Shown here in pieces: positions 2,482 through 30,438 of a stretch of 41,448 bases of DNA. The stretch is from a virus. The notes under the pieces are model-generated. The model was not told the DNA's origin and did no database searches. It worked only from the letters and a program-made list of their open reading frames with translations. Position numbers and translations under genes: made by a program. The stretch is from IMG/VR virus record IMGVR_UViG_3300045120_000235, positions 1 to 41,448 of that record. One strand, written 5' to 3'. Positions within the stretch are counted from its first letter, which is position 1; the number at the start of each line of letters is the position of its first letter.

Positions 2482-2486
2482 TCGCA

Positions 2487-4078: not shown

Positions 4079-4097
4079 ACTTTGTAGGAGAGTCAAA

Positions 4098-4886: not shown

Positions 4887-4894
4887 CCGCCACC

Positions 4895-16400: not shown

Positions 16401-16654
16401 TCCTGCGCACTGCCGGCGGCGCCGAGTGGGAAGGGAGCACCACCACGCCGTTCGACCTGGTGGGGGGCGGCAGCAAGCTCGCGCCCGACATGATGGACGA
16501 GATCGTCATCACCGATCGCGGGCCCGAGCGGGTCATCCTCGTGTGGCCAACCGGCCGGCAGCTGGTGGTGCGCATCAGCGTGGGCGGCGTCAGCTACGCC
16601 GCCGGCCGGAACCCGCTGCACCGCGTTTTCTCCCACAACACCATCAAGCCGTGA
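10460..16654 (+). CDS. J-like tail tip/host-specificity protein with repeated modules
   Basis: This 2,064-residue protein starts at GTG 10460, overlapping the previous stop with GGAG 9 bases upstream. A TTG 15 bases earlier is less likely. Residues 1-430 resemble tail-tip J/gp53-like proteins (LGLDFQSAQYGNCIPVVFGQNKLAGNVID). A fibronectin-type III-like domain lies at about 640-735. Four 113-residue repeats follow, two of them trailed by beta-sandwich carbohydrate-binding-like modules (GNGTNVLWDEYSRY, GGNGINMMWDEQSRF), and a third such module comes after repeat four. A Gly/Ser linker at about 1921-1932 precedes a C-terminal domain. It is the main receptor-binding candidate of the virion. Confidence 0.87.
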   Translation: MSIFGGKKPAAQKDTHALGLDFQSAQYGNCIPVVFGQNKLAGNVIDYMDFLPVAHKQKAQGGKGGHPPSTTSWTYQASFVIGLCEGLGTIVTVYNGTGENTLAGAGGIGFNGSATQGVWAHLTGTHALNYSATSIACFQDMQLGDTASLPNLNFEIAGRNQLGGGIVDANAADILTAICTDTQIGVKFTALGDLTAFRNYSTAAGLFFSPVYDTQAPASQAIESLLKYANSAGYFSEGVLKVVPYGDSAITANGATYTPNLTVVADLGANDFMTNGPGPKVTTKRKSPADALNIVHVEYKDRSAKYRTIPVTASIDQDVVATGSRTDQSESVDMITLASTARLVAQNLLQRMYYIRNTYSFRLAWRWCWLEPTDIVSLTDVGQGLNLTPVRITSISEDEHGLLSVEAEELPDGIGHGGTYATPAVIPTNTDPDVDPGPVTAPYFFRAPGFLVSAGAPEIWVAVNGANPMWGGCDVYLSQNGSSYTYLSTFARKSIYGSLTNTLPNVADPDTTSAPNVSLYAGGVLLGGLAADADEFVTMAMVDTEIISYQAATLAAGPSYTLGTRIRRGGYGTTIASHSAGAPFVRLDENILRIPMDASQVGSVIYVKFLSFNAFGRGDRTLAMETAYPYTVGSNIEFPDVPATPGSFAVTGVADGINLTWNNVNPAAVACTSIERCATSGGTYTVIAQVGPTDTMYHDAMTTGATWFYKIRSRGHQVSGGWSAYTAFASGTAYNTTTSVAAALAAANAAQADATAALAQLTDIASDSLLTPGEKPIVIKDRDALTAEQAGIDAQATAFSITTEKTTYDTAVTALTTYLATLTSPVLWSNLGGNTTIVGTTFRQKFLDVYAARTALLNKIYAAAKLLADTAQAAANAAQADATSALATLTDIASDSLLTPGEKPIVIKDRDTLTGEQSGIDAQATTYSVTTEKTTYDTAVTALTTYLATLTSPVLWSNLGGSTTIVGTTFRQKFLDVYAARTVLLQKIADVVTYGNTAGNGTNVLWDEYSRYLTSTLPTINLNVSTAAAVSDSLATGGFALQLTTASATNAEYCVFGSSPIANFNLPLPPGKYIVSAYMRASVSGHLVRFVIKDDGNTGHFGANLAITNTTGFVRYSQVIDTTAAPGANQLLYINTNMSAVSGRVVTLDRIMIEPQVGGLTTPSPYVQGNPARLAINAQTAANAAQADATSALATLTNIASDSLLTPGEKPVVIKDRDAITAEQSGIDSQATGYGITTEKTTYDTAVTALTTYLATLTTPVLWSTLSGDTTIVGTTFRQKFLDVYAARQVLLQKIADTVTLGNTGGNGINMMWDEQSRFTALPQYANYNDTLTTFAYDAATTIVGDGGSFQVTSGAANANGFFQLNGSSGDYNIPCPGGQKYILSFYARCSTAGHTIRPQYTRDDAVSFNSAPDFTLTTANTWYRVALVVDLSAVAAIRKIAVGVFYNRAAVTGRVTKYAGFMLEPIIGQLTTPSPWVLGTAGRLALTGITNAASAQAAAVAAQADATSALATLTDIASDSLLTPGEKPVVIKDRDSITNEQSGIDSAADLYQVVTEKTTYDTAVTALTTYLATLTTPVLWSTLSGNTTIVGTTFRQKFTDVYSARQALLNKIASNAQGLIYAPRSGSEQLVNADFEFGTDSPPVGWALNSATVLYDTTTQFAGTRSIKVTSTATNGGILSDQKYGISVGGRIRVSGQAKRVSGTGSASIAVSFFDNTGAVVSTVNAGTTTSSSWTALTGVCQAPANTSYYQVNLRCTVSGDVCEFDNILLGRQRDLDNDIEDGATMGRVLLTDLSSNRVGLRVAGSGHRIGDQRNLPQITITNLQSKVPTVVTYTSTATTATISVAAFTVTAGSVTVSYSASSVGTTGSGTVTYYLYMDDPTYAGGTQTLVATTTALVCYQNDGRLLVGVCTVIYTAGGSGGGGSGGHDCVAASMFLRFGHRAGDAQQLQMIDCIDLPAGLPIHARAIEAIKQSVEDCVLLRTAGGAEWEGSTTTPFDLVGGGSKLAPDMMDEIVITDRGPERVILVWPTGRQLVVRISVGGVSYAAGRNPLHRVFSHNTIKP
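12701..15298 (+). repeat. Four 339-bp repeats inside the J-like gene
   Basis: Copies lie at 12701-13039, 13084-13422, 14005-14343 and 14960-15298. Each is exactly 339 bp (113 codons) and most positions are shared. The shared core includes IASDSLLTPGEKP, TTEKTTYDTAVTALTTYLATL and TTIVGTTFRQKF. Copies 1 and 2 are separated only by a short linker. Copies 2-3 and 3-4 are separated by beta-rich modules of about 190-205 residues. The repeats probably form helical spacers along the fibre and are prime sites for recombination. Confidence 0.9.
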
Positions 16655-16663
16655 GGGCAGACC

Positions 16664-17125
16664 ATGTATTCCAAGCCTGATCAGAAACAGTTCCTGCAGG
16701 CGGCGCCGGCATCGGAAAAAGCCGAAGCCGTCGACGGCCTCGAGCCCGGCGAGTTCGTGGTGCAACTCGACACCGGCGAATTCGTCGCCGTGATCGCGCA
16801 AACCTTCATCGTCGAAGAGTCGGGGAACCCGTCGATCCATGCGCGGGCCCGCGTCGTCAATGCCGACGGCTCGGCCGCGCGCGATGCCAACGGCGATCAG
16901 ATCCAGACCGGCTTCTCGCATAGCACCAACCAGGTGGAGCTCGAGAACCTGGGCGGCATCACCGAGGTCCAGCGCGCGGTGCTCCTGGCCGTGCTCGGCG
17001 AGCCAGCGAGCCAGCTGTGGGCGGATCCGGTCCACGCGTCGGTGCTCGAGCACGCGAGCATCCGGACGAACATCGCGAGCGCTGCACATTCCGGCGTCGT
17101 TCCCGACGTCGGCCAACTACTGTAA
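16664..17125 (+). CDS. Small tail-region protein, unknown
   Basis: This 153-residue protein starts MYSKPDQKQFLQAAPAS, 9 bases after the J-like stop. It contains a beta-rich segment with EFVVQLDTGEFVAVIAQTF and IHARARVVNADGSA. No family is recognised. Placement after the fibre suggests a fibre-associated or assembly protein, but this is only context. Confidence 0.65.
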   Translation: MYSKPDQKQFLQAAPASEKAEAVDGLEPGEFVVQLDTGEFVAVIAQTFIVEESGNPSIHARARVVNADGSAARDANGDQIQTGFSHSTNQVELENLGGITEVQRAVLLAVLGEPASQLWADPVHASVLEHASIRTNIASAAHSGVVPDVGQLL

Positions 17126-17135
17126 GGAGAAGGGC

Positions 17136-17330
17136 ATGGCCAGGGTAAAAATCACCGTGACGCAGGCGGGTGGACCGATCGAAGTGCTGGTGATCAACGG
17201 CGGCGCGGAACGTCTCGCGGCGACGCTGCAGAAGAAGGGCGACTCGCACGAAGAGGAAGTCGCGGTGCCACAGGCGATCGTCTTGCGGGAAGACCACACC
17301 GCGATGCCCGAGGCGCCGGAAGCCGAATAG
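17136..17330 (+). CDS. Small acidic-tailed protein, last gene of tail operon
   Basis: This 64-residue protein, MARVKITVTQAGGPIEVLVINGG, has an acidic Glu/Pro-rich C-terminus. AAGGAGAAGGG precedes its ATG, a strong ribosome site. It is the last rightward gene before attP. Its TAG stop directly abuts the first TTTTTAGCG arm-type repeat. Function unknown. Confidence 0.65.
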   Translation: MARVKITVTQAGGPIEVLVINGGAERLAATLQKKGDSHEEEVAVPQAIVLREDHTAMPEAPEAE

Positions 17331-17584: not shown

Positions 17585-17833
17585 TCAATCGAGGTGGAAA
17601 ACCCAATCGGGCGGATCCCAATCCGACTCCCATTCGGCGATATTGAGCCAGCTGAGCACCTTGCCCTGGCCATCGGTCAGGAAGACACCGTACTGGCTGC
17701 CGAATAGTTCCATGCCGTACGAACGCACCACATAGCGGCTCGTGTGGCCGTCGAAGGTGAACGGCTCCGACAGTTCAAAGATCTTGGCGTCGGTGCGGAA
17801 GTTGTGCGCCTTGCCAATCGCGGTGGCGTTCAT
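17585..17833 (-). CDS. Small protein downstream of integrase, unknown
   Basis: This 82-residue protein has beta-strand-like segments (RYVVRSYGMELFGSQYGVFLTDGQGKVLSWL) and ends WDPPDWVFHLD. Its ATG overlaps the integrase stop (ATGA), so it is co-translated as the last gene of the leftward operon. It ends next to the inner attP arm repeat. No family recognised. Confidence 0.65.
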   Translation of the reverse strand: MNATAIGKAHNFRTDAKIFELSEPFTFDGHTSRYVVRSYGMELFGSQYGVFLTDGQGKVLSWLNIAEWESDWDPPDWVFHLD

Positions 17834-18828
17834 CGTGTTGGCTCCACTTTTCGCGGCAGCCGCTGGTAGACGCGCTGGAATGTCTTCTGGTCCAGGTGGC
17901 CGAGGATCTGCCAGTCGCGCGACTCGGTGCCGGCCTTCGCGCGCAGATCGTTGAACGTGAAGCGCGCCAGCGTCGGGTCCGCCTTTCGCGCCTTCTTGAA
18001 GGCCTTGTGCCAGAGCGTTCGAAAACCGGACGACGTGTATTCCTCGCCGCCTTCCGTCACCAGCCAGTGCAAGCTGGCGAACTCGCGCAGCGCAGTGCCC
18101 ATTTCATAGGCCTGCCGCAGCCCATCAGTCCAGGCGAACAGCAACGGCTGTCCGGTCTTCCTGGTCTTGACCAGCAACCCTTCCTTCGTAAAATCCGACC
18201 GCCGCAGCCGCAGGATGTCGCCCTGGCGCAAGCCGGTGATCGATGCGATGAACATCGCCGCGCGCACGATCGGCAGCGCCTTGACGAACACGGCCGCGAA
18301 TTCGCTGTCCAGGACGAAGCGATCGCGCGGCCGTTCCTTGAGGCGATCGATGAACCGCGTGGGGTTGTCCTTGAGCAATCCCTTCTTGCCGGCGAGCTTG
18401 GCCAGCTGCACCAGGACCGTGAGCTCGCGGTTGCACTGGACGATACTCTGGTCGCCGCGGGCCTCCTGCCATCGCGAGATCGCCGGCGCGTCGAAATCGG
18501 ACCAGCGAACATGGCCCCACACCGGCCGCAGGCTGGCGATGTATTTCTGGTAATCCTTCTCGGTGGATTCAGCCAGGTCACCCTTCTTCCGCTTGCGCGC
18601 GATCGCGCCCAGGAACAGATCCATCGTGGCGCTCATCGTCTGGCCAACCTTCTCGCCGGCGCCCCAGACGTCGGACCAGTCGGCCATCATCCGGTGGATA
18701 TCGGCGCCGTACGTCTTGCGCTGCAGCTTGCCCGCCGATGCGGGCACCATCATGTAGAGGGAGCCGCTGCGCTTGTCCTTGTAGCAATAGGACGGCAGAT
18801 GGCGGCTCTGGGAACGGGGGCGGGCCAT
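17830..18828 (-). CDS. int: Tyrosine-recombinase integrase
   Basis: This 332-residue recombinase probably inserts the phage into the host tRNA-Phe gene. The core-binding SAM-like domain lies at about 65-155. Catalytic-domain residues are Arg201 in TGLRQGDIL, a Lys near 221-224 in VKTRKTGQ, Arg296 in FTFNDLRAKAG, His311 in LGHLD and the nucleophile Tyr321 in FQRVYQR. The usual His of HxxR is Asn293 here, a tolerated variation. It lies 9 bp after the excisionase-like gene and next to attP. Confidence 0.93.
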   Translation of the reverse strand: MARPRSQSRHLPSYCYKDKRSGSLYMMVPASAGKLQRKTYGADIHRMMADWSDVWGAGEKVGQTMSATMDLFLGAIARKRKKGDLAESTEKDYQKYIASLRPVWGHVRWSDFDAPAISRWQEARGDQSIVQCNRELTVLVQLAKLAGKKGLLKDNPTRFIDRLKERPRDRFVLDSEFAAVFVKALPIVRAAMFIASITGLRQGDILRLRRSDFTKEGLLVKTRKTGQPLLFAWTDGLRQAYEMGTALREFASLHWLVTEGGEEYTSSGFRTLWHKAFKKARKADPTLARFTFNDLRAKAGTESRDWQILGHLDQKTFQRVYQRLPRKVEPTR

Positions 18829-18837
18829 GCGAAGAGC

Positions 18838-19080
18838 CTACGCCGCCTTCTTCGGGTGATCCAGCGCGCCTAGGTTGGGCTCGGTCTTCCGCGCCGTCCT
18901 GGTGCTGCTGGCGGGCATCAGCTTCGCTTCCACGGCCGCACGCAGCACCACGATGGCGCCGTGGCAGTCTTCCGTCGCCGGGATGCCATTGGCCGCGAAC
19001 CAGGCGAACTGCTTGGCCCGGTGCGTGGATCCGGTCAGCTCGCGCAGCTCGGCTTTCGACAGGCGTTCGATCTCGCTCAT
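18838..19080 (-). CDS. DUF4224-like protein, candidate excisionase
   Basis: This 80-residue protein begins MSEIERLSKAELRELTGSTHRAKQFAWFAANGIP. That is the DUF4224 pattern, a short helix-turn-helix found just upstream of phage integrases. The position, in front of int in the same operon, suggests a recombination directionality factor. The C-terminal half is basic. It overlaps the preceding gene by four bases. Confidence 0.75.
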   Translation of the reverse strand: MSEIERLSKAELRELTGSTHRAKQFAWFAANGIPATEDCHGAIVVLRAAVEAKLMPASSTRTARKTEPNLGALDHPKKAA

Positions 19081-19373
19081 TGCGTCCTTGGAGCCACGAT
19101 GGTGACGTCGCCGCTGTGCAGCAGCGAAACGGCATGGTTCATGTATTTGCGGTTGTAGGCGTTGTCCGGCGCAACGCCAAGGTGGAGCGACCAGTTGGCG
19201 ATGCGTTCGTCGAAATAGACCTTGTAGACGTCCGACTCATCGAAGGTCCAACCGTTCGGCAGGATCCCCATGCTGTCGTCCGCGGTCATATTTCCATCGA
19301 GCGAGACCATGTCGCCCTCAGTGATCTCGACGCCGTTTCGATCGATGAGTCCCGTCTTGCGCTGCATGGTCAT
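19077..19373 (-). CDS. YopX-like small protein
   Basis: This 98-residue protein contains TGLIDRNGVEITEGDMVSLDG near its N-terminus. That is the signature of the YopX family, common in phage early regions and of unknown role. The ATG at 19373 overlaps the previous stop (ATGA), so it is preferred over a longer frame starting at 19496. Confidence 0.7.
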   Translation of the reverse strand: MTMQRKTGLIDRNGVEITEGDMVSLDGNMTADDSMGILPNGWTFDESDVYKVYFDERIANWSLHLGVAPDNAYNRKYMNHAVSLLHSGDVTIVAPRTQ

Positions 19374-20077
19374 TTGCCCCAATCGCTCTGGTCCATTTCG
19401 TAGCAGAGCTCGAGGCGGGCAGCGTCGCGTGCTGCGAGGAACTGCGCGAACTGCTCCGGATCTCCGCCCTGGTCGGGATGTTTGCCCTTGATGCACTCCT
19501 TGAACCGCGCCTCAACCTCGCGCGATGTCAGCGTGTCGCTCGGCAGGAAACCGAGCACGTCTCGCCAGGGCGTGGTCGACGTCGACGGTGGCAGCGCCAG
19601 GAAGCCGACGAACGCACGGTTGAGCACTTCGGCGCCGCCATGCCGATCGATCGCGCGCATGGCGTCCAGCGTCGCGGCGATCGCGGCCAGATTGTCGGCG
19701 ACGCGGTCATAGCGATCGATGGCCATGCAGCGCGGCGGCTGCGAGCGATCAAAGCGGTCCGTCCAGTAAACCGCAACGCCTGGATCGTCGGGCTCGCGCT
19801 GGCCACTCTTCGGAAAGCCGTCAAGCCGCAGCGCCAGGTTCGTGCTTATCACCAGGTCGTCGTCGCTGATGCCCATCCGCGAAAGCTCGGCGCGGACCCG
19901 GTCGACGCCCTCGGCGATGGAAACCTCGCCTTTCCGGAGCCAGCTGCTCTGCGAGCCGTCGGATGCCCTGGCGCCGTATTCGCGCTTTTGCTTGCCGAAC
20001 TTGGCGCGCGTGCGATCGAGGCCGCGGGTTCTTTTCCAGCCGGTGGGCCATTGCAACGGGTAAGCGGGAATAGTCAT
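19370..20077 (-). CDS. J-domain (DnaJ-like) phage protein
   Basis: This 235-residue protein has a C-terminal J-domain-like segment: WRDVLGFLPSDTLTSREVEARFKECIKGKHPDQGGDPEQF (about 168-207), including the HPD tripeptide needed to stimulate Hsp70. The N-terminal 160 residues are unrelated to DnaJ and are a phage-specific domain. It may recruit host DnaK during replication or lysogeny control, but that is inference. It overlaps the upstream gene by four bases. Confidence 0.78.
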   Translation of the reverse strand: MTIPAYPLQWPTGWKRTRGLDRTRAKFGKQKREYGARASDGSQSSWLRKGEVSIAEGVDRVRAELSRMGISDDDLVISTNLALRLDGFPKSGQREPDDPGVAVYWTDRFDRSQPPRCMAIDRYDRVADNLAAIAATLDAMRAIDRHGGAEVLNRAFVGFLALPPSTSTTPWRDVLGFLPSDTLTSREVEARFKECIKGKHPDQGGDPEQFAQFLAARDAARLELCYEMDQSDWGK

Positions 20078-21117
20078 GCAATCTCCGGAAATTGATCATG
20101 TAGACGGCCGTCGAGTTGGCGGCCAGAAAGCTTCTTTCCGAAGCGTTGAAGCGGCGTGTCTTCGGTGCTCGGGTTGACGAACAGCTTCGAGTCGGTCTGG
20201 CCTCTGCCATAGGGCGCCCACTCGCCCCACTGCTTGAACAGGAAGGCGACGCCGGCGGCGGCGCACTGATCGCGCAGCGATCGCACCCACTCGGGATGCA
20301 TTGGCCGCGCGTCAGGCCCGGACTCGCCGCCGCAGATGACCCAGTCAACGCCCCACTCGTCGCCGATTCCGGTGTAGTCGCACCGCCGGCAGCACTCGTA
20401 AGCACCGGTGGTGGGGTCCATACGCATGTTGTCGGCATTGCGGCACGGTAGGCACACCAAGCCGTCGACAGTAAGGTCGATCGGCCCAAGCATCGGCTCG
20501 ATCGACAGGAACCGCACTGCTGCCGGCGTCTGCAGCAGCTTCGGCACGTCGCGACCAGCTTCATCCTGATTCACAACGGTGGCGCCGAGCCAGACATTCG
20601 GCATCGGGTTGCGCGACGACGTCGCGGTGATCCCTGACCAGCCGCCGGCTTCGGTGATCATTCGCTCCGCGTTGCCGATGCGCTTCGTCAGTAGCAGCCA
20701 GTCGAGGTTCGGCGTCTGGCGAATCAGCGAGAACAGGTCAGCGCGCCAGCTCGGCGGCACTTCATTGTCGAAAACATCGGCGAGAGAGGCGCAGAAGACC
20801 CGTCTGCGCACGGGTCGGAATGCCCACTTGTCACAGCGCGGGCAGTGGCGGGTGACGCCGGCTAGGGTGTTCTCATCGCCACGCCAACCGCATCCAACGC
20901 ATTCGAGGAATGCGGCGCGATCCCATCGAAGCGGCTTCTTCCAATAGTCGGCGCCGGTGCGAGAGCGCTCCTGGCCAGCGCCCCACTTCACGCGATGCCG
21001 GCGTTTATCCATGTCGGCTTCGGCGTAGCAGTGGTCGCACCCAGGCCCAACCTTCGTGCACCCAATCCACGGGTTAAAGGTTGAGTCGGTCCATTCGATG
21101 TGCGTGTGGTCAGCCAC
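20074..21117 (-). CDS. Gp37/Gp68-family (DUF5131) protein
   Basis: This 347-residue protein begins (GTG) ADHTHIEWTDSTFNPWIGCTK, the standard opening of the DUF5131 family. A Cys cluster CTKVGPGCDHCYAE near residue 20 resembles a radical-SAM-type metal site. Two further Cys pairs lie near residues 75-95 (CVGCGW, CPRCDK). The GTG at 21117 has AAGGA 8 bases upstream and is preferred over a longer ATG frame overlapping the neighbour. The biochemical role of the family is not established. Confidence 0.85.
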   Translation of the reverse strand: MADHTHIEWTDSTFNPWIGCTKVGPGCDHCYAEADMDKRRHRVKWGAGQERSRTGADYWKKPLRWDRAAFLECVGCGWRGDENTLAGVTRHCPRCDKWAFRPVRRRVFCASLADVFDNEVPPSWRADLFSLIRQTPNLDWLLLTKRIGNAERMITEAGGWSGITATSSRNPMPNVWLGATVVNQDEAGRDVPKLLQTPAAVRFLSIEPMLGPIDLTVDGLVCLPCRNADNMRMDPTTGAYECCRRCDYTGIGDEWGVDWVICGGESGPDARPMHPEWVRSLRDQCAAAGVAFLFKQWGEWAPYGRGQTDSKLFVNPSTEDTPLQRFGKKLSGRQLDGRLHDQFPEIA

Positions 21118-21271
21118 GGCTGGAATCCTTCTTCGTCGAACGCTCGCGCTTCTCGTTCTCGGTGAGGCAATAGAAATGGACGTAGCCGCCAAGGACCAGG
21201 CAGCGCGGCCCGACCTTGCCGCAGCGAAGGCAATGCCGACTCGTGTGCCCCCACGGCAGCTTCTTAGCCAT
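21110..21271 (-). CDS. Small zinc-ribbon-like protein
   Basis: This 53-residue protein begins MAKKLPWGHTSRHCLRCGKVGPRC and has a further Cys at VHFYCLTENE, giving a CxxC...C...C metal-binding pattern. The C-terminus is highly charged. It overlaps the upstream gene by 8 bp and the downstream gene by 8 bp. Function unknown. Confidence 0.6.
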   Translation of the reverse strand: MAKKLPWGHTSRHCLRCGKVGPRCLVLGGYVHFYCLTENEKRERSTKKDSSRG

Positions 21272-21506
21272 TGCGTTTCCGCGCCCGCTTGGCGATCTTG
21301 TTTCGCACCCGGTTCTTCTTCCGCACCTTCGCGGCGAATTTGGCCAGGTTGGTTTGCGCATTCAAGTTGATGGTCGTGGATCCCCGTTCGGCCAGTTCAC
21401 GCTCGGCCTCGGCCTGCAGGTGCTTGGGAACCTCCACGTATTTACTGCGCAGGTCTTTCGGAAGGGAATTGATATCCGAAACGATTTCGCCGGTGTATGG
21501 CTGCAT
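21264..21506 (-). CDS. Small basic protein, unknown
   Basis: This 80-residue protein has a helical middle (PKHLQAEAERELAERG) and a strongly basic C-terminus (KVRKKNRVRNKIAKRARKR), suggesting nucleic-acid binding. It sits tightly between two genes of the operon. No family recognised. Confidence 0.6.
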   Translation of the reverse strand: MQPYTGEIVSDINSLPKDLRSKYVEVPKHLQAEAERELAERGSTTINLNAQTNLAKFAAKVRKKNRVRNKIAKRARKRNG

Positions 21507-21507
21507 G

Positions 21508-21813
21508 TCAGCTGTTTCCTTTGGTTGGGATGTGCTTCAGTTGGAACTCGTGAATAAATCTATCGAGCTCCTTGTGGATGGCGTCCATGCGAGCCAAGTC
21601 CTTTAAGGTCGGTTCGTCGCTGGGATCGAGGACGCACATGATGCTGGCGAACAAGTGCTGCGCACCTGCAAAGAAGGCCATGCGCATTTCGTTCACCTGG
21701 ATTGGCGGAGCGGCTGGATCCATCGCAGCCATACGCAGACTGACGAACCCGGCCTCGATCAACAGGCCCTTCTCGATCAACTCGCGGGAGAGTTTTTCCA
21801 GGTCGTTGCTCAT
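21508..21813 (-). CDS. Small helical phage protein, unknown
   Basis: This 101-residue, mostly helical protein (MSNDLEKLSRELIEKGLLIEAGFVSLRM) is of a type common in proteobacterial phage early operons. It overlaps the upstream gene stop by four bases. No catalytic motif seen. Confidence 0.65.
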   Translation of the reverse strand: MSNDLEKLSRELIEKGLLIEAGFVSLRMAAMDPAAPPIQVNEMRMAFFAGAQHLFASIMCVLDPSDEPTLKDLARMDAIHKELDRFIHEFQLKHIPTKGNS

Positions 21814-22346
21814 GCTTCACCCGGGAACTTTCCGTCGACCATTTCAGCGAGGTCGGATCGGCCAGGGCACATGCTCAAGTCGACGCCCTTGATCGCGCAG
21901 TGCCAGTTATAGAGCGCGGCGGCCGTCGAAATGCAGTGGTGCAGCGCCTTCTCGTTCGGCGCCGGTGGGAGCTCTTCGAAGCGACCGTCGAAGAACTGAG
22001 CCGCCGGGCGTACCCAGATCTTGCCGTCGTCCTCGCCGCGATAGACGACTACTCGTGTTCCACGATTGTTCTCGTCTTCGCCTTGAGCGATCACTTCGTA
22101 GGTGGTGCCGCGCTTCACGTGCCGATATCGCGGCAGCACGTCGGCATTGGCGGCGTGCAGTGCCTTACCGGCGAGGTAAGCGACCAACCAGAACCAGTCT
22201 GCCGGGCGTTTCGCGCGATCGTGTGCGGTTCCCCACCGTTCGACCTGGTGCACGGCTTCAACATGCGTGCCGCGCAGGAACGCATCGATCTCCGGCGAGT
22301 TGATCAATTGCTTGAGTCGGTCAGCTTCGATCTGTTGCTGGTTCAT
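21810..22346 (-). CDS. DUF1653-like domain phage protein
   Basis: This 178-residue protein has an N-terminal helical part with VERWGTAHDRAKRPADWFWLVAYLAGKAL. A middle beta domain (YRHVKRGTTYEVIAQG ... VVYRGEDDGKIWVRPAAQFFDGRF) matches the DUF1653 pattern. The fusion is common in phages and its role is unknown. It overlaps the ParB-like stop by four bases. Confidence 0.7.
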   Translation of the reverse strand: MNQQQIEADRLKQLINSPEIDAFLRGTHVEAVHQVERWGTAHDRAKRPADWFWLVAYLAGKALHAANADVLPRYRHVKRGTTYEVIAQGEDENNRGTRVVVYRGEDDGKIWVRPAAQFFDGRFEELPPAPNEKALHHCISTAAALYNWHCAIKGVDLSMCPGRSDLAEMVDGKFPGEA

Positions 22347-24022
22347 TTCTTCACCGCCGCTTTTTTCATAGCCTTCTTCGCGGCCTTTTTCGGGGCCGGC
22401 TTTGGCGGCGCTGGCGCGCGCAGCAGCTGTGGTATCCAGTTCGCTGCAGCGAGCAGCGGATAAGCAGCAGCAGCGAGGGGTTTGCCCGTGAGCTTGTCCA
22501 GTGGTTTCGCCTTATCGGCGCCGCAGGCTTCGGTCACCGCTGTGACGATGTATGGCTTGGCTTGCTCGCTGAGCCATTGTTGCGAAAGCTGCCAGTGCTC
22601 CGCGAAAGTGACGCCGACAACTTTGGCGAACGCATGCACGTCCGGCTCCTGGGTGTCGTCAGCCAGGATCAGTTCCGCGGCCATGATGGCCAGAAGCTTA
22701 TCGACCAAGTGGTTGTTTTCCGACTTGATCAGCCAAGCAAGGATGCTGCCGTGTTGCTTGACGCCGGCGTCGATCTTTTTGGCCCACTCGGCGAGCTCCT
22801 GGATGCCCTTCGGATCCGTCGCCTTGATGGCTTGCGCAATCGTCGACGGCGCGTAGGGCATCGCCTCCAGCACGATCAGCGTCGCCGCCGGCTCGCTCCA
22901 CTTTCCGGTGAAAAACTGCGCCGCCATCGCCGCAGCCAGGCACGTGCGGGCCATGTAGCCGTCCTCGCGCAACTCGCGGCGCAAGATCGCCGTGCGCACG
23001 CCGTAGAGCTTGTCATTGGTCTCGCGTGTTCCGTCACCCTTGGGCTTGTTGGCGCCGGCCTTTTTCTTGCTCGCCGGCGCCTTCTCGCCGGGCTTGACCA
23101 TGCCTTTGTGCACGTCGATGTTGCCGTTGTGGCTGATCGTCACGATCACGCCGAGCTTGGGATCGGGTTTGCCGTCGCCGCCTTGCTTGTATTTCGCCTT
23201 CTCGCTGTAGTCGAACGACAGCCGGGCCTCCGCCCAGCCCCAACCTTTCGCGCGTTGCTTCGCCGCTTCGGCCTCGAGCTTGGCCAGCGCGAGCTTGTTC
23301 ACCAATTTGGAATCGGGCAGAGACGCAAAATCGCTGAACAAATCCTTGCGCGTCTTGCCGCCTGCCTTCTCGTACGCGTCGACGCCGACGAAGCGGCCGA
23401 GCGTGCTATCCAGGCCGATATCCTTTTCGACCAGCGCCTGGCGCAGCTGCTGCGGGCTGCGTAGCCATAGGGCATGCTCGCCGGCTTTCCAGGCCTTCAT
23501 CTGGGCGGGGTGATCGTCGACCAGCGCCAGGGCCATCATCTGATCGAGTGTTGCCTTGCCCGCGCGATACTCGGCCAGCAGCGATGGAGCGACGTTACCC
23601 AGGCGAAACCGTTGTTCGACATGCTTCTCGCTGGTGCCGAACCGCACGGCGATCTCGGCGGAGGTAAAGCCAGACTCCTTGGCCAGCGCCCGGAATGCTT
23701 CGAATTCGTCGGCCGGGTGCATCGCCTGTCGCACGACGTTCTCCGCCAGCGAGATCTCGGCGGCTTCCGCGCTGGTGACGATCCTGCAGGCGACGGGATG
23801 ATCGTCGGCGAGCGCGCCTTCCTTGGCGAGCAGCTGCAGTGCCTGCAGTCGGCGGTTGCCAGCCACCACCTGGTACTTGCCGGCGATCTCAACGACGGAA
23901 AGGTTTTGCAACAGTCCATGCGCCTGGATCGAGCCGGCAAGGTCTTCGATGCTGGCGCCGCCCGACTTGCGGACATTGCTCGCGGACGATGTGAGTTGGG
24001 ACAGCGGAATCGACAGAGTCAT
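22343..24022 (-). CDS. ParB-like nuclease/DNA-binding domain protein
   Basis: This 559-residue protein starts MTLSIPLSQLTSSASNVRK. The ParB N-terminal domain (about 1-100) includes GLLQNLSVVEIAGKYQVVAGNRRLQAL, and the CTP-binding GNRR motif is present. A helix-turn-helix region follows at about 110-180 (TSAEIAVRFGTSEKHVEQRF). The C-terminus is a Lys/Ala/Pro-rich tail. No ParA is encoded nearby, so partition is unlikely on its own. Its ATG overlaps the reverse transcriptase stop (ATGA), so it is translated from the same transcript as the DGR. Confidence 0.85.
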   Translation of the reverse strand: MTLSIPLSQLTSSASNVRKSGGASIEDLAGSIQAHGLLQNLSVVEIAGKYQVVAGNRRLQALQLLAKEGALADDHPVACRIVTSAEAAEISLAENVVRQAMHPADEFEAFRALAKESGFTSAEIAVRFGTSEKHVEQRFRLGNVAPSLLAEYRAGKATLDQMMALALVDDHPAQMKAWKAGEHALWLRSPQQLRQALVEKDIGLDSTLGRFVGVDAYEKAGGKTRKDLFSDFASLPDSKLVNKLALAKLEAEAAKQRAKGWGWAEARLSFDYSEKAKYKQGGDGKPDPKLGVIVTISHNGNIDVHKGMVKPGEKAPASKKKAGANKPKGDGTRETNDKLYGVRTAILRRELREDGYMARTCLAAAMAAQFFTGKWSEPAATLIVLEAMPYAPSTIAQAIKATDPKGIQELAEWAKKIDAGVKQHGSILAWLIKSENNHLVDKLLAIMAAELILADDTQEPDVHAFAKVVGVTFAEHWQLSQQWLSEQAKPYIVTAVTEACGADKAKPLDKLTGKPLAAAAYPLLAAANWIPQLLRAPAPPKPAPKKAAKKAMKKAAVKK

Positions 24023-25392
24023 GATTGGATCCTCGGGAAGTGGGACGGGAGTTCGATCAGTCGACCTTCCGAACGGAGATCGAAGTTGCGACGCCGAGTG
24101 GCGGCAGCGAGCCAGGGAAAACGGCGATGGAAGTCGCGGCGCAGCTGGTAGCTGCTCGCGTGGTCGAAGTGGCCTTCGTAGCTCGCCCAGATCGCGGAGA
24201 CGTCACGCAGATCCTGCGGCGTCACCTGCAGGCCGTGTGCGGTGACGTGGCGATACGCCCACCCAGACAACGCCTGGCGCGCGTGCGACACGACACGACG
24301 CCGAACGAGCGTGTGGGAAGGGCGGACGATGTAGCCGAGGAAGTCGATGCCGTCGGTCAGCGGCTGCAGGCGGATGTCGGCTTTCAGCGACAGGTTGAGC
24401 CGGCTGGCCAGGAACGCCTCAATCTGGTGTTGCCACGCGAGCAGCTGCTCGCGATCGCGATGCACCAGGACAAAGTCGTCGACGTAGCGCAGGTAGCGTT
24501 TCGCCTTGAGCACATGTTTGACGAACTGGTCCAGTTCGTTGAGGTACACGTTGATGAAGAACTGCGATGACAGGTTGCCGATCGGAATGCCGCAGCCCGG
24601 CGGCGCGTTCTCCAGCCGCTTGTGCGGCGGCACCTGGGCGCGTTCCTCGGCGCTGGCGCGGTAGTGCACGCCCTGCTCGAGGGGCGACAGGCGAAGCAGG
24701 GCGTGGACCGCGTGCTGTATCGGCAGCGATATCCCGGCGCGTTGCATGCGTGCCTTGAGCAGGCCGTAGAGGATCTTCCGCTTGACCGAGTTGAAGCAGT
24801 TGTGGATGTCCAGCTGCAGGAAATATCCGCCGCCCTGGCCGCTGGCGACTTGCCGAACGAACGCCACCAGCTGGCGAACCGCGGCGTGGGAACCTTTGCC
24901 GCTGCGGTTGGCGTAGCTGTCGGAAATGAAGGTCGGCTCGCAGACGGCCTCGAGCGGCGGCACCACCAGGTGATGCACCACGCGGTCGGCGAAATCAGGC
25001 GCGTGGATCTCGCGTGCCTTCGGCCGCGTGGCGATGAAACAGGTGGTCGGCCGCGGTGACCAGGTGCCGGCGTTGATCTGGTCCTGGATCTCGAGCAGGT
25101 TGTCCATCCAACGCAGTTCGAACTGCAGCTGGTTGACGCTGGGGCGCTTGCCTTGCCGCGCGCGCTGGAAAGCAGAAAGGATGTCCGGAAAGCGAATGCC
25201 TTCCGGTGCCGCACCGGGATACTCACCGGGCACGCCAGCGGGCCGCACGGCGAGGACGAAGCACTCGTTGTTGCGGTTGTTGGTGTTGGCGTTGCCGTTG
25301 TTGAAATTGAGGTACCACGCGTCCGAAGACGCATCCCCCGACACTTGCGACCCGGCCGCGCATCCCGTCGTGGCGTAGCGTGGCGTCGTCAT
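24019..25392 (-). CDS. DGR reverse transcriptase (frame includes the TR)
   Basis: The open frame is 457 residues. RT motifs are KAREIHAPDFADRVVHH (125-141), catalytic LDIHNCF (Asp195), IGNLSSQ (271-277, the IGxxxSQ form typical of DGR enzymes), YVDD (303-306) and GIDFLGYIV. The ATG at 25392 overlaps the avd stop (ATGA), which would place the template repeat in the first about 55 codons. The RT fold proper starts near residue 65. A GTG at 25233 would give a 404-residue enzyme starting right at the TR end, without an evident ribosome site. The true start is unresolved. Confidence 0.94.
   Translation of the reverse strand: MTTPRYATTGCAAGSQVSGDASSDAWYLNFNNGNANTNNRNNECFVLAVRPAGVPGEYPGAAPEGIRFPDILSAFQRARQGKRPSVNQLQFELRWMDNLLEIQDQINAGTWSPRPTTCFIATRPKAREIHAPDFADRVVHHLVVPPLEAVCEPTFISDSYANRSGKGSHAAVRQLVAFVRQVASGQGGGYFLQLDIHNCFNSVKRKILYGLLKARMQRAGISLPIQHAVHALLRLSPLEQGVHYRASAEERAQVPPHKRLENAPPGCGIPIGNLSSQFFINVYLNELDQFVKHVLKAKRYLRYVDDFVLVHRDREQLLAWQHQIEAFLASRLNLSLKADIRLQPLTDGIDFLGYIVRPSHTLVRRRVVSHARQALSGWAYRHVTAHGLQVTPQDLRDVSAIWASYEGHFDHASSYQLRRDFHRRFPWLAAATRRRNFDLRSEGRLIELPSHFPRIQS
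25222..25331 (-). repeat. DGR template repeat (TR)
   Basis: These 110 bases align without gaps to both variable repeats. The sense strand carries eight AAC codons and one AAT, the usual DGR design in which adenines are mutagenised during reverse transcription. The 3' 45 bases (from GAG TGC TTC onward) are GC-rich and identical in TR and VRs. They end with a G in the TR (sense) where both VRs have C, reminiscent of the IMH/IMH* distinction. The TR lies between avd and the RT core, in frame with the RT. Confidence 0.95.
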
Positions 25393-25826
25393 GCGTTGGC
25401 CCCAGAAACTGAGGCGGCCGGGGTACTCAGTATCTGTCCACGCTGGCCATGCCGCGGTTGCGGCTGGCCATTCTGGGAACTACGGTGCAAATCCTTTTTC
25501 CAGCCGCCGGCCTGCATGCCGAGCTCTCGGCAGATCCTGGCCAGCTGTTCGAAGCGTGCCTTGCTGGTGAACGCGCGCAGCAGGGCGGCGATCTGCAGTT
25601 CGCCCTTGAGCGTGTCGATCTCGCGCACCAGGTCGTCGACCAGGTCACGGCGATATCGCGGCTCCGCGTACGCCTGGCGCGCCAGCCTCAGCACCTTCCG
25701 CACCTGGGCGCGCAGATCCTCGCCCGTCGGGTACCGGTTGAAGCGCGAAAACTGCCGAACGGCCTGCTCGATTTCTAGGAGCAGGCGCTCGGACAGCTTC
25801 ACGATCGGCGGCGCGTGGAAGGTCAT
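25389..25826 (-). CDS. avd: Avd, DGR accessory variability determinant
   Basis: This 145-residue protein is predicted almost wholly helical up to residue 110 (LLLEIEQAVRQFSRF ... DLVDDLVREIDTLKGELQIAALLRAF ... FEQLARICRELGMQAGGWKK), the four-helix-bundle Avd pattern. Avd is a basic pentamer that binds RT and the TR-containing RNA. A 34-residue Gln/Pro/Ser-rich tail follows, longer than in BPP-1 Avd. Its 3' end abuts the TR, so this stretch may be constrained as DGR RNA. It lies between the second target and the RT. Confidence 0.87.
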   Translation of the reverse strand: MTFHAPPIVKLSERLLLEIEQAVRQFSRFNRYPTGEDLRAQVRKVLRLARQAYAEPRYRRDLVDDLVREIDTLKGELQIAALLRAFTSKARFEQLARICRELGMQAGGWKKDLHRSSQNGQPQPRHGQRGQILSTPAASVSGANA

Positions 25827-25857
25827 GGTATGCGGTCGGCTTTTTTCAGAAGGTCAA

Positions 25858-26415
25858 TTACTGACCGGGCACGCCAGCGGGCCGCACGGCGAGGACGAAG
25901 CACTCGCCGCCGCGGCTGTCGGTGTCGGCGGAGCCGTAGCTGAAAAAGAGGTACCACGCGCCCGAAGACGGATTCCAGGACGCGCGCCGACGGGTCCAGT
26001 ACCAATCGTCGGTCCGGATCCAGAAGAAGAAGTTGGGATCGCACGCGGGGTTATGGCGCGAGCGATCGATGATCGGCTCGAGTTCCTTGTCGTCGCCCAT
26101 CTGCCAGCCTTTGACGCCGCAGTGCTCGAGCTCGGCGGCGGCTTGCTCGCCTTCCTCGTGCGGCCAGGTGCGATCGCCGACGTTGATCGCCGCGACGATC
26201 ATGTTGTTCTGGAGCAGGTGGATCGCGCCGACGTCGCTGTTGGGCGCATCGTCGGGCAGCGGCTCGAGCGTGTGGCTCAGCTTGATGTAGAGCCGGTCGT
26301 CCCGGCGCCGCTCCGGAAGGGCGCGGTGCACGGTGCCCTCGCCCTCGGCGATGAATTGCGTGGGGAAGTGGCCGCACGTCGGGCAGTTGCTGACGCTGAT
26401 CGTGTTCTCGTCCAT
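25858..26415 (-). CDS. DGR target protein 2, DUF1566/C-type-lectin-like
   Basis: This 185-residue protein has an N-terminal region with CPTCGHFP (11-18) and a beta-rich middle. The C-terminal DUF1566-like domain spans about 83-185 (GVKGWQMGDDKEL, WYWTRRRASW, SSGAWYLFF, ECFVLAVRP). The variable repeat encodes the last 38 residues. Ten positions (Gly152, Phe157, Ser159, Tyr160, Ser162, Asp164, Asp166, Ser167, Gly169, Gly170) differ from the TR translation. There is no signal peptide or transmembrane segment. The TAA stop is one codon past the VR core. The ligand is unknown. Confidence 0.88.
   Translation of the reverse strand: MDENTISVSNCPTCGHFPTQFIAEGEGTVHRALPERRRDDRLYIKLSHTLEPLPDDAPNSDVGAIHLLQNNMIVAAINVGDRTWPHEEGEQAAAELEHCGVKGWQMGDDKELEPIIDRSRHNPACDPNFFFWIRTDDWYWTRRRASWNPSSGAWYLFFSYGSADTDSRGGECFVLAVRPAGVPGQ
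25861..25970 (-). repeat. DGR variable repeat VR2
   Basis: This aligns to the TR at an offset of 639 with no gaps. In the core 107 bp there are 14 substitutions and every one lies at a TR adenine. Nine AAY codons plus one GAC codon are altered. A 5-bp stem GGTCA/TGACC (25852-25866) sits over its 3' end and the stop codon. Confidence 0.95.
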
Positions 26416-26458
26416 TACGTTCTCTCAGTGGCACGGCTCGCGCCGCGGAAGGTTTTTT

Positions 26459-27028
26459 TCAAAGGGCAAACGACTGACCGGGCACGCCAGCGGGCCGCAC
26501 GGCGAGGACGAAGCACTCGTAGTTGCGGAGGTAGGTGTAGGCGTAGCCGCTGTCGAAAAGGAGGTACCACGCGACCGAAGACGGATCAGCCGCCCAGGGC
26601 GTGCGCGTCCAGTGCGAAGCGGCGTCGATATCGGGGAAGTAGTTGGTGTCAGCCGCAGGATCGTGCTTCGTCAGATCCCGGATCGCCTCGAGGTCTTCCA
26701 GGTCGGGATAGCGCCAGTCCTTGAAACCGAGCAGCGTGAGCGCAGCGCACAGCTTCTCGCCGGCGGCCCACTTCTGCCGCTTCGCGTGGATCTTCCGCGC
26801 GGTGACCCAGATATTGCGGCTGGCGACGTAGACCGCGACGTGATCGGTGCCGGCATAGTCGGCGGGCAGCGCGTTGCCGTCGGCGCCGATCTTGATGAAG
26901 CGCGCCGGCGCCGCGGTCTCGCCGCTGAACGAAAGCAGTTCGCCGGCGATCGGCGACAGGTCGGAGTCGCGCTTGATGTTGATGAAGCTCGCGCCGTTCG
27001 GCTCGATGCGGATGGAAATGTTCTGCAT
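26459..27028 (-). CDS. DGR target protein 1, DUF1566/C-type-lectin-like
   Basis: This 189-residue protein starts at ATG 27028 with AGGGG about 10 bases upstream. A longer frame to 27187 lacks a site and overlaps the neighbour. The N-terminal 80 residues are beta-rich. Residues 85-189 have the DUF1566 pattern: KWAAGEKLCAALTLLGFKDWRYPDLEDLEAI, SHWTRTPWAA, SSVAWYLLF, ECFVLAVRP. The diversified residues are Val152, Leu157, Asp159, Ser160, Tyr162, Tyr164, Tyr166, Leu167 and Tyr170. Asn169 keeps the template codon. Four tyrosines are typical of a selected binding face. No export signal is seen. Confidence 0.88.
   Translation of the reverse strand: MQNISIRIEPNGASFINIKRDSDLSPIAGELLSFSGETAAPARFIKIGADGNALPADYAGTDHVAVYVASRNIWVTARKIHAKRQKWAAGEKLCAALTLLGFKDWRYPDLEDLEAIRDLTKHDPAADTNYFPDIDAASHWTRTPWAADPSSVAWYLLFDSGYAYTYLRNYECFVLAVRPAGVPGQSFAL
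26474..26583 (-). repeat. DGR variable repeat VR1
   Basis: This aligns to the TR at an offset of 1252 with no gaps. In the core 107 bp there are 11 substitutions, all at TR adenines. The invariant 3' segment is identical to TR and VR2 apart from the terminal G/C difference. The coding frame continues five codons beyond it. Confidence 0.95.
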
Positions 27029-27054
27029 GACGGATCCCCTGGTGAGTGGGTGGG

Positions 27055-27306
27055 CTAGCGGATGGAACGGACGCGCTGCGGCGTGGCGTTGACGACAGGC
27101 ACGGCGACACCGATCAGGCGACACCACTCCTGCAGGGCCGCTTCGAAGCTCGGGTGCTTCGCCGTCTTGCGATCGCAGGGATGGCATTCCAGGCAGTGGC
27201 CGCCACCGCTACGCGGCGCACGGCGATCTTCGAAATGCTTGGGCGCCTTGCTGCAGGCGCAGGGCGGGACTTCGCCAGGCGCGTGCGTGATCTGGTGCTG
27301 GGTCAC
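27055..27306 (-). CDS. Small Cys-rich phage protein
   Basis: This 83-residue protein, (GTG) TQHQITHAPGEVPPCACSKAPKHF, has paired Cys (CAC, CLECHPC) and His residues consistent with a zinc site. The C-terminal part is FEAALQEWCRLIGVAVPVV. The GTG overlaps the upstream stop (GTGA), which decides the start. It is the gene immediately before DGR target 1. Function unknown. Confidence 0.65.
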   Translation of the reverse strand: MTQHQITHAPGEVPPCACSKAPKHFEDRRAPRSGGGHCLECHPCDRKTAKHPSFEAALQEWCRLIGVAVPVVNATPQRVRSIR

Positions 27307-27431
27307 GGGCCACCGCCTTCGGCGCGTTTGTTCGCGACCATGTCGGCCCAGCCGATAACGGCCATCCCGACGGCGAGCAGGGCGAACGCACCGAAGAACC
27401 CGACCACGATGCCGAACTGGAAGTCGCTCAT
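27303..27431 (-). CDS. 42-residue membrane protein
   Basis: MSDFQFGIVVGFFGAFALLAVGMAV provides one transmembrane helix, followed by a short charged cytoplasmic-type tail. Both ends overlap neighbouring genes (ATGA and GTGA), which supports translation. Function unknown. Confidence 0.6.
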   Translation of the reverse strand: MSDFQFGIVVGFFGAFALLAVGMAVIGWADMVANKRAEGGGP

Positions 27432-27670
27432 GCGCGCACCGGTTCGACGGGTTTGGCCAGCTGAATCGCGAGGTGCCTGGCTTCTTCGATAACGCGATGA
27501 TTCGCGACGCCGGCGGCGAGCATCTTCTGGCTCGCGGCGACGACGACCGCCTTGTTGACGCCGTTACAGCCACGCGCGCGGGCGATGGTGCGGCAGCGAC
27601 ACACCACCTGCTCGGTGGTTAGGTCAGCAGCCGCGCGCGCGGCACGATCGAAAGCGAGGATCTGTCCCAT
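27428..27670 (-). CDS. Small helical protein, unknown
   Basis: This 80-residue protein starts MGQILAFDRAARAAADLT. It contains CRCRTIARARGCNGVNKAVVV and is predicted helical. Start at 27670. It ends in an ATGA overlap with the 42-residue membrane protein gene. No family recognised. Confidence 0.6.
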   Translation of the reverse strand: MGQILAFDRAARAAADLTTEQVVCRCRTIARARGCNGVNKAVVVAASQKMLAAGVANHRVIEEARHLAIQLAKPVEPVRA

Positions 27671-27672
27671 GC

Positions 27673-27846
27673 TCAATGCCCTCCGGAGAAGAAGCCGCCC
27701 CACCAGAGCAACCCGAAGACCAGGGCGGCTCCGATCAGGGATCGGATGAAGTCGTGGGTGCCGGTCTTCTCCTGGCCGTCGCGCGTCAGCGCCGTGCCCA
27801 GGTTCATGCCGATGAGAATCACGTAGAGGATCTGGGGCAGGTGCAT
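27673..27846 (-). CDS. 57-residue membrane protein
   Basis: MHLPQILYVILIGMNLGTAL and DFIRSLIGAALVFGLLWWGGFF make two hydrophobic segments. The gene fits exactly between its neighbours, with stop-to-start gaps of 1-2 bases. Function unknown. Such two-helix proteins are common in phage early operons. Confidence 0.6.
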   Translation of the reverse strand: MHLPQILYVILIGMNLGTALTRDGQEKTGTHDFIRSLIGAALVFGLLWWGGFFSGGH

Positions 27847-27847
27847 G

Positions 27848-28060
27848 TCAGGCCTCGAGGGCAGCAGCTGCTGCGGGATTGGTGAGCGCCGAAGCCAACT
27901 TCGCGCGCGCTTCGTCCAGGCGCCGGCGGTGGCGCGCGAGGTCGTCGAGCATCGTTTTGTTCGGGTGCGCGTAGCGCGACAGCCTGGCGATGTTTGCCTC
28001 GGCGCCGACCATTGCCTGGAAAGCGGCGCGCGCGACCTCGAGCCGGGCTTCTGGAGTCAT
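27848..28060 (-). CDS. Small helical protein, unknown
   Basis: This 70-residue protein, MTPEARLEVARAAFQAMVGAEANIARL, is predicted as two long helices with a basic middle (ARHRRRLDEARAK). Its ATG overlaps the upstream stop (ATGA). Function unknown. Confidence 0.6.
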   Translation of the reverse strand: MTPEARLEVARAAFQAMVGAEANIARLSRYAHPNKTMLDDLARHRRRLDEARAKLASALTNPAAAAALEA

Positions 28061-28356
28061 TTCGCACCGCCGTTCAAACCCAGCCGCGCGTCGGCGCGTT
28101 CCATGCGCTTCACTTCCTTACGGCAGGCGGCACCGATGGCGAGCCATTCGTTACCTGCTGGCGTGAAGTTGGCGATGGAGTGGGCGGCAGCGTCCCGCAC
28201 AAATTGTCGGGCGAGCGTCCTGCGCAACGTGATGGCGTAAGCGACCTGGCCGCGCGTGAGGTTCGGGTTCTTCGCTGCCTTGTCCGCCTGATACACCCAG
28301 CCGGCGGCCAGGCGTTCCTGGCGCGACGCGGCGATGCTCACGACCGCCGCGATCAC
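28057..28356 (-). CDS. Small protein, unknown
   Basis: This 99-residue protein starts at a GTG overlapping the upstream stop (GTGA): IAAVVSIAASRQERLAAGWVYQ. It is helical and basic toward its end (CRKEVKRMERADARL). No family recognised. Confidence 0.6.
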   Translation of the reverse strand: MIAAVVSIAASRQERLAAGWVYQADKAAKNPNLTRGQVAYAITLRRTLARQFVRDAAAHSIANFTPAGNEWLAIGAACRKEVKRMERADARLGLNGGAK

Positions 28357-28637
28357 GCGGCCACCGACAAGGGAATGACGCGGCGGAACTCGATCATGCA
28401 GCCGCAAGCGATCCCGTTCTTGAACAGGGGAGTGGTGCGGCGCTCGAGGACGCCGGCGGCAACTAACGAGTCGGCGTAGCGATGACGATCGCCAGAACCG
28501 GCGCACTCGAATTCCGGGCCGAACGATTCCGCGACCGCCAGGTATTTGGCGGCCGTCTCGGCGTCGATCGGCGCACCGGCCCGGGCGAAGAGCCGGGCGA
28601 TGGCGGTCTGCAGCGAGAAGTCGGGCGGCTGGTACAT
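28353..28637 (-). CDS. First gene of leftward operon, unknown
   Basis: This 94-residue protein, MYQPPDFSLQTAIARLFARAG, includes AAKYLAVAESFGPEFECAG and a basic YADSLVAAGVLERRT segment. GGAG lies 6 bases before the ATG. The predicted transcript start lies about 25-30 bases upstream. It is the first gene under the operator-covered promoter. Confidence 0.68.
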   Translation of the reverse strand: MYQPPDFSLQTAIARLFARAGAPIDAETAAKYLAVAESFGPEFECAGSGDRHRYADSLVAAGVLERRTTPLFKNGIACGCMIEFRRVIPLSVAA

Positions 28638-28670
28638 CGGAGCTCCAACGCCAGTGGCGGCGCGGAGCTA

Positions 28671-28699
28671 AGTAAAGCAGCGCTTTACCTATGTGTCAA
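28671..28699 (-). promoter_or_regulatory. Leftward early promoter (pL-like)
   Basis: On the minus strand TTGACA (28699-28694), a 17-bp spacer and TTTACT (28676-28671) form a near-consensus sigma-70 promoter. The predicted start is near 28664, ahead of the 94-residue gene. The -10 hexamer is identical to that of the cro promoter, and both elements are covered by repressor-type palindromes. Confidence 0.8.
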
Positions 28700-28711
28700 G
28701 CGGTGCTTTAT
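28672..28711. promoter_or_regulatory. Two operators over the leftward promoter
   Basis: GTAAAGC-agc-GCTTTAC (28672-28688) is a perfect palindrome overlapping the -10. GTCAAGC-ggt-GCTTTAT (28695-28711) is a degenerate copy overlapping the -35. Their centres are 23 bp apart, about two helical turns. The same core TAAAGC-N3-GCTTTA lies over the cro promoter, so the CI-like repressor is the likely ligand. Confidence 0.75.
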
Positions 28712-29696: not shown

Positions 29697-30377
29697 TTAA
29701 TCCACCCAGCTACCGAGCCAGCGGACGCGACCGATAATCTGCACCGGTTCGCGCTTGGCGTCCATGCGCCGGGCCTTGTTCCAACGATGATCAGCGTCGG
29801 GGTTGATCGATTCGAAGAATACGATGTCATCCAGGACCAGGCATCGCTTCGCGTAGATCTCCTTGCCGAGCTGGACGATGAAGATCGCCTTATGTTCCGG
29901 CTTCTTGTCGGACACGTCGAACAGGAGGGCATCGCCTTCCTTGATCATCGGCAGCATCGATTCGCCGCGGCCATACATCACGGCCAGGTTGCTGGCGAAC
30001 AGTCCCTTGCGCGCCAGGCTGTCGGCCTTGAACTTGAGTGCATGCGTCTCGGCGTATTCCTGGGCCTCGACACCGTTGCCCAACCCGACCGCCTGGGCAT
30101 ACCCGAGCACGTCTTCCCAATCGTCCCGCTTCGGTGCGCCGGATCCGCGCCGGATGAAATGCTCGATCGGCTTGCCGAGGATGCCGGCCAGGCCGGACAG
30201 GTTTTCCTTGCTGATGCGGCCCGTGGTTTCCCAACCAGTGATGGCCTGGGGCGACACGTCCAAGCGCTCGGCAATCTCTGCCTTCGTCTGGGGCGCGGCC
30301 GCGATCGCCGCCCGGATTAGGGCGGCTGTCTCTTCGTTGGTGAGGGGGTCCCGATCAAGCATGGATTGAATGCTCAT
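29697..30377 (-). CDS. CI-like repressor, HTH plus S24 domain
   Basis: This 226-residue protein has an XRE-type helix-turn-helix at about 30-60 (TKAEIAERLDVSPQAITGWE). The C-terminal LexA/S24-like domain has the Ser in GRGESMLPMIKEGD and the Lys in EIYAKR. I see no Ala-Gly or Cys-Gly cleavage site in the 45 residues before the Ser, so RecA-stimulated self-cleavage is not assured. The ATG at 30377 is preferred. The longer frame would cross the cro promoter. Divergent to the cro-like gene. Confidence 0.9.
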   Translation of the reverse strand: MSIQSMLDRDPLTNEETAALIRAAIAAAPQTKAEIAERLDVSPQAITGWETTGRISKENLSGLAGILGKPIEHFIRRGSGAPKRDDWEDVLGYAQAVGLGNGVEAQEYAETHALKFKADSLARKGLFASNLAVMYGRGESMLPMIKEGDALLFDVSDKKPEHKAIFIVQLGKEIYAKRCLVLDDIVFFESINPDADHRWNKARRMDAKREPVQIIGRVRWLGSWVD

Positions 30378-30401: not shown

Positions 30402-30438
30402 ATCAATGCTTGATGGACGGCTAAAGCTATGCTTTACT
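30402..30438 (+). promoter_or_regulatory. cro promoter and operator (pR-like)
   Basis: TTGATG (30410-30415), 17 bp, TTTACT (30433-30438) form the promoter. TAAAGC-tat-GCTTTA (30422-30436) is a palindrome of the same core sequence as the leftward operators and overlaps the -10. A further 13-bp palindrome ATCAA-tgc-TTGAT (30402-30414) overlaps the -35. The predicted transcript start falls at the GTG of the cro-like gene. Confidence 0.75.

Follow-up and report, generated by a model that had tools for sequence, protein, structure and literature searches.

A diversity-generating retroelement in a putative repressor-controlled early operon of a temperate phage and its relatives

Diversity-generating retroelements (DGRs) of phages are commonly explained as host-range switches that act on tail fibres. 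In phage BPP-1 the cassette (mtd-avd-TR-brt, TR being the template repeat) directly follows bbp9-bbp12 on the same strand as the tail genes, its target Mtd is an annotated tail protein of 381 amino acids and the TR is intergenic. In VHML the reverse transcriptase (RT) is found among tail genes. Here, we describe the DGR of a virus record of 41,448 bases (IMG/VR IMGVR_UViG_3300045120_000235, positions 1 to 41,448), in the following called the window. It shares with BPP-1 adenine-specific changes from TR to variable repeat (VR), an Avd protein, an RT and a C-terminal VR in a target with C-type lectin fold. However, its cassette is located in an operon between repressor and integrase genes and not among tail genes as in BPP-1 or VHML, its two targets comprise 185-189 amino acids with Lcl_C as the only recognised domain, and its TR lies inside the RT open reading frame (ORF).

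The second system for comparison is the leftward early operon of phage lambda. There, paired OL operators cover the promoter pL and repeat the repressor word of OR, the operon reads to xis and int, and cI is located upstream on the same strand. The window has the paired OL, the word that is also found at the cI/cro operator, the excisionase and integrase genes at the end and cI upstream on the same strand, whereas its gene content differs and consists of a DGR, a ParB-like gene and unassigned genes instead. No antiterminator of the N type was noticed in the window, no search aimed at N or nut having been made. We give a probability of about 0.7 to the reading that this DGR resides in a lambda-type pL operon under control of CI and that its diversified target proteins are made early and act in the infected cell and not as ligands on the tail.

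The CI/cro region and the putative pL operon

The genes of a CI-like repressor (minus strand, 29697-30377 with approximate start codon; HTH_3 and S24 domains by Pfam, PHROG 4) and of a YdaS/P22 Cro-like protein (plus strand, 30445-30681; Pfam YdaS_toxin 1e-24, P22_Cro) diverge at about 30.4 kb. The operator at pR/cro (TAAAGCTATGCTTTA, 30422-30436, an exact match) overlaps the -10 box of pR. In the whole window exact copies of the word TAAAGCNNNGCTTTA occur only there and at 28673-28687, the proximal OL operator, whose end supplies the -10 of pL; the copy with one mismatch at 28696-28710 is the distal OL operator, whose end supplies the -35. With up to two mismatches allowed, three copies were found versus 0.29 expected. 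The promoter pL itself (TTGACA-17-TTTACT, minus strand, 28671-28699), overlaid in both boxes by these operators, is the top site of the operon strand in a sigma-70-like scan of about 29.8-17.4 kb, where it scores 10/12 and the next best site 8/12. No internal promoter ahead of the DGR exceeding 8/12 was detected on that strand in the same range. The promoter pR beside cro (TTGATG-17-TTTACT) is built like pL, and in both the operator covers the -10. An earlier note on this DNA had already placed pL at 28671-28699 beneath operators of the cro core and had seen no other promoter for the operon. Both statements hold, the former with one exact and one single-mismatch copy at the top promoter of the strand, the latter within the scope of a sequence scan.

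Downstream of pL the minus strand carries a nearly gapless string of genes from 28637 to 17585, and most junctions in the gene calls are overlaps of 4 bp or gaps below 45 bp. The small genes at its head (27067-28637, gene calls) have no assigned function and are followed by target 2 (26459-27028, 189 amino acids; Lcl_C, Pfam 4.4e-17, and AlphaFold model), target 1 (25858-26415, 185 amino acids; Lcl_C, Pfam 6e-11), Avd (25389-25826) and the RT with the TR inside (24019-25392; PHROG 1423, E=1e-93; RVT_1). Next come a ParB-like protein (22343-24022; Pfam ParB_N and HTH_ParB), a stretch with a DUF1653 protein, a DUF5131 protein and unassigned genes (19077-22346; Pfam and gene calls), an excisionase-like DUF4224 protein (18838-19080; Pfam 9e-11), a tyrosine integrase (17830-18828; PHROG 1, 1.2e-25) and a final unassigned gene (17585-17833; gene call). 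The only strong intrinsic terminator of the operon strand, at 17401-17374 in a terminator scan, closes the string, which reads to an excisionase-like gene and an integrase as a lambda-type pL operon does. The genes for head, connector, tape measure and tail occupy the plus strand at 902-17330. That the DGR shares a leftward string with parB-like, excisionase-like and integrase genes had been noted before, and gene calls, Pfam and PHROGs, from which DUF4224, integrase, ParB, RT, Avd and both targets are named, agree with it. The extent of 28637-17585 stands with the refinement that the same-strand run in fact starts at cI (about 30377), with SmpA-like and BRCT-like genes upstream of pL, and that the operon ends at the above mentioned terminator.

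The TR (25230-25340, minus strand, detected by the TR/VR scan) has 23 adenines and 88 other positions. The VR of target 2 (26592-26482) departs from it at 11 of the former and 3 of the latter, and the VR of target 1 (25979-25869) at 14 and 4, respectively. Between two near-identical relatives (L019 and L021), 32 of the 48 VR positions that correspond to TR adenines differ, as opposed to none of the remaining 180 in the VRs and 8 out of 2773 outside them. Comparison of these repeats demonstrates adenine-specific DGR activity in the past. The Avd call is based on PHROG 3206 (E=2e-11), with Pfam bAvd under its cut-off. The RT ATG overlaps the Avd stop and the TR is located within the 5' end of the RT ORF (25392-25230), likewise in the relatives L002-L051 and L065. 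Because the TR lies inside the reading frame of the RT, RT mRNA and TR RNA are expected to be one molecule. The RT may carry a TR-encoded leader; in every checked relative whose RT is at least 54% identical its frame is open across the TR, although L004 and L010 have the TR peptide in a different frame. Hairpins 5-6 bases 3' of the target stop, candidates for the hairpin that together with the initiation of mutagenic homology (IMH) site follows the VR of a DGR, were noticed in several relatives.

Placement and operators in related phages

IMG/VR was the source of RT relatives. Thirty contigs in which the RT is about 55% identical or more were retrieved nearly whole and make, with the window, a set of 31; many of the relatives are fragments or circularly permuted. 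In 27 of the 30 related contigs the RT belongs to a run of genes on one strand with the largest ORFs on the other, the strand classes being derived from a custom gene caller and ORF size and backed by family tallies. The opposite-strand ORFs encode portal, terminase, tail, primase and helicase proteins, those on the RT strand RT, integrase, CI repressor, ParB and DNA methyltransferase. Also in the three exceptional contigs the DGR is well away from tail genes. In a Mu-like transposable phage (G014, L019) the same DGR has the transposase gene nearby, and in G038 the DGR adjoins a primase gene; in both of them 15 kb or more separate it from the tape-measure gene. In G028 about 20 kb lie between the DGR and a tail fibre gene. 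VRs hidden in virion genes were considered as well, but all 69 VRs found by scanning both strands of the 31 contigs belong to the RT strand and none to the opposite one, which is in line with the former claim that the target genes stand opposite to the virion genes. Judged from these genomes, the placement of the DGR in the putative early operon is a property of the whole phage group. The cultured strain Rhodanobacter thiooxydans LCS2 (L163, NZ_AJXW01000043.1) encodes a 63%-identical RT and is, if inducible, a candidate prophage host.

The virions of these phages are not correspondingly related. Among 307 phage pairs whose RTs are at least 60% identical, 173 have no virion-strand protein in common (E 1e-5). 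In ten of these 173, all with RTs of 70% identity or more, the best-matching targets are 51-74% identical over nearly their full length. It might be argued that the position is accidental, i.e., that the DGR is modular cargo tolerated in a variable region and its timing has no functional meaning, as the pL region of lambdoid phages is generally mosaic and rich in cargo. We regard this as improbable, since the early position is kept in about thirty phages with unrelated virions, also in the Mu-like one, and chance insertion is expected to yield some late-strand placements.

In each whole contig we looked for further copies of rare exact palindromes from the divergent gaps that lie upstream of the RT. 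For 61 tested palindromes 4.4 chance recurrences were expected overall and 47 were found. Of these, 26 are located 0.7-3.5 kb downstream on the side of the DGR, 10 are no more than 150 bp away and 11 are at other places. Nine phages, the window among them, have nine different operator words, and in each the cI/cro palindrome is found again 1-2.75 kb on, ahead of the DGR. Where OL operators are paired in tandem their spacing is 23-25 bp, and in six phages both boxes of pL are made of operator ends, the -35 of that of the distal and the -10 of that of the proximal operator. The most compact arrangement is seen in G034 (record of L042), where pL at 16062-16103 is followed by the target ATG at 16154, avd at 16595 and RT at 17026, the target thus being the first gene after an operator-covered pL. 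The recurrence in nine phages with unrelated operator words, the gene order of G034 and the lack of VRs on the virion strand in all 31 contigs support the proposal that the DGR belongs to a CI-type early operon and not to the tail genes, and the cross-phage comparison strongly supports the regulatory prediction. So many independent operator words also provide sequence evidence of how a lysis-lysogeny switch would gate a DGR.

Target proteins and their presumed site of action

Target sizes across the contigs are mostly 119-232 amino acids according to the gene calls. The 62 full-length aligned targets match Lcl_C only in Pfam and just two families, both functionally unassigned, in PHROGs; a tail-attachment domain was recognised by neither. 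Signal peptides or transmembrane segments are not apparent by eye, no predictor having been run. In the AlphaFold model of target 2 the C-terminal domain reaches a predicted local distance difference test score (pLDDT) above 90, and the best PDB match is the C-terminal domain of Legionella Lcl (8q4e, Foldseek E 1.6e-05). Two identities were tried and discarded: as known tail proteins, the window target and one relative's target gave no tblastn matches in 50,697 phage records, and as known defence proteins the targets had no PADLOC match. In many relatives (L002, L007, L008, L009, L016, L027, L031, L040, L041, L051 and others) the early operon that holds the RT also has a target 2-6 kb upstream of it, in some cases as the third target, and these far-upstream targets are always on the RT strand.

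From the early, repressor-controlled layout it is predicted that the targets are made at the start of infection. Because only Lcl_C is recognised in them, and because they travel between unrelated virions yet stay in the early operon, we infer a role outside the virion; most likely they are not virion ligands. The earlier note had asked whether they are virion ligands at all, and the lack of recognised domains besides Lcl_C together with conservation across unrelated virions sharpens this question.

The putative sequence of events would be as follows. In the lysogen CI would occupy the paired operators over pL and keep it silent, and the small genes, both targets, avd, TR/RT, parB, xis and int would all be off. 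After loss of CI upon induction, or without CI as an infection begins, the mRNAs of the targets, Avd and the RNA of TR/RT would all come from a single transcript, and both proteins with C-type lectin fold would then be produced early. The target genes would be rewritten on phage DNA before or during its replication, and inside the infected cell their products would bind, in diversified forms, a variable component of the host or of a competing element.

Several findings weigh against this reading. Recurrence of the operator was demonstrated in just 9 of the 31 contigs, and 11 of the 47 palindrome recurrences are located elsewhere. Applied to three cultured phages (Magia, LPPA56 and Haboob), the strict recurrence test found none, and for this reason the pL claim does not include them. 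Upstream of pL, cI and the smpA-like and BRCT-like genes share its strand, and the terminator-like hairpins in between are weak, as is the T-tailed one after the smpA-like gene. Finally, the fold of the targets is also found in tail-fibre proteins of other phages, which makes a role as adhesin plausible.

Owing to this last point an alternative with virion adhesins is retained, in which pL drives early synthesis of the targets, these are stored and become part of the tails late, and the DGR still serves host range. BPP-1 is a precedent for it, and also the closest solved structure, the C-terminal domain of Lcl, belongs to an adhesin. Nevertheless, we hold it to be unlikely, because 27 of 30 relatives have the targets among early genes opposite the virion strand, no virion-strand gene contains a VR, no tail-attachment domain is recognised and the targets are common to phages without detectable similarity of virion proteins.

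The gene order upstream of pL raises a further alternative, namely that the cassette is on in the lysogen, either via read-through from cI, smpA and BRCT or from an internal promoter, and that the targets serve the lysogen, e.g., in superinfection exclusion. As no strong terminator separates the cI transcript from pL, leaky expression in the lysogen is possible, and such basal read-through is a point that the earlier note did not contain. An annotated terminator before the proximal target of Magia also hints at separate control in that phage. On the other hand pL is the best promoter of the operon strand with no other site above 8/12, the target directly follows pL in G034 and the relative G007 (record of L008) has a canonical intrinsic terminator between cI and OL (oriented position 36019), which the window lacks. 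Moreover, CI bound to OL could block read-through. Expression of the cassette in the lysogen is therefore rated as rather unlikely, somewhat more so than the adhesin alternative.

The minus-strand gene at 29350-28757 between cI and pL has a BRCT-like C-terminus by eye, a lower GC content (0.58) and a PADLOC match to the candidate defence family PDC-S48 (E 1.4e-6); it is possibly a defence gene expressed in the lysogen.

Provided that the targets are early proteins of the infected cell, a conserved class of DGRs with targets in a CI-controlled early operon, uncoupled from the virion, would imply a different job for targeted hypermutation. We tentatively suggest, with less than even confidence, a widespread class of temperate phages in which a repressor-gated DGR diversifies small early intracellular binders with lectin fold against polymorphic components of the host or of rival phages and not against surface receptors. 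Defence sensors or proteins of superinfecting phages, for example, could be their aims. Such a class makes the different job testable by asking when the DGR is on and what its variable proteins bind.

Comparison with described phages and proteins

A fold in common with the window targets is known from the C-terminal domain of Legionella Lcl and from DUF1566/Lcl_C proteins. Lcl is a surface adhesin, whereas the window targets have no signal peptide apparent by eye. Full-text literature searches, which did not cover the DGR survey of Wu et al. (NAR 2018, gkx1150), retrieved no description of an early-operon DGR class; Roux et al. 2021 do not use the words early, temperate, integrase or DUF1566.

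Among cultured temperate phages, Magia, LPPA56, Haboob and Cruim01 likewise have a DGR in the region from CI to integrase, opposite cro or tail genes where these are annotated, and differ by RTs of just 35-38% identity. Short lectin-fold targets as in the window are annotated in Magia, whose announcement names the DGR and the short target genes without comment on the early position (PMC7883833). In this phage (L241) a terminator is annotated at 11729-11758, directly upstream of the proximal lectin-fold target, and suggests antitermination or a separate promoter there.

In the Bacteroides hankyphage, silencing of a CI-like repressor induced DGR activity (PMC12135933). This phage differs from the window as it is transposable, its target is a tail fibre and the repressor governs the whole lytic programme with no pL operon that includes the target. 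Nevertheless, repressor gating of a DGR thereby has an experimental precedent, obtained with a tail-fibre target.

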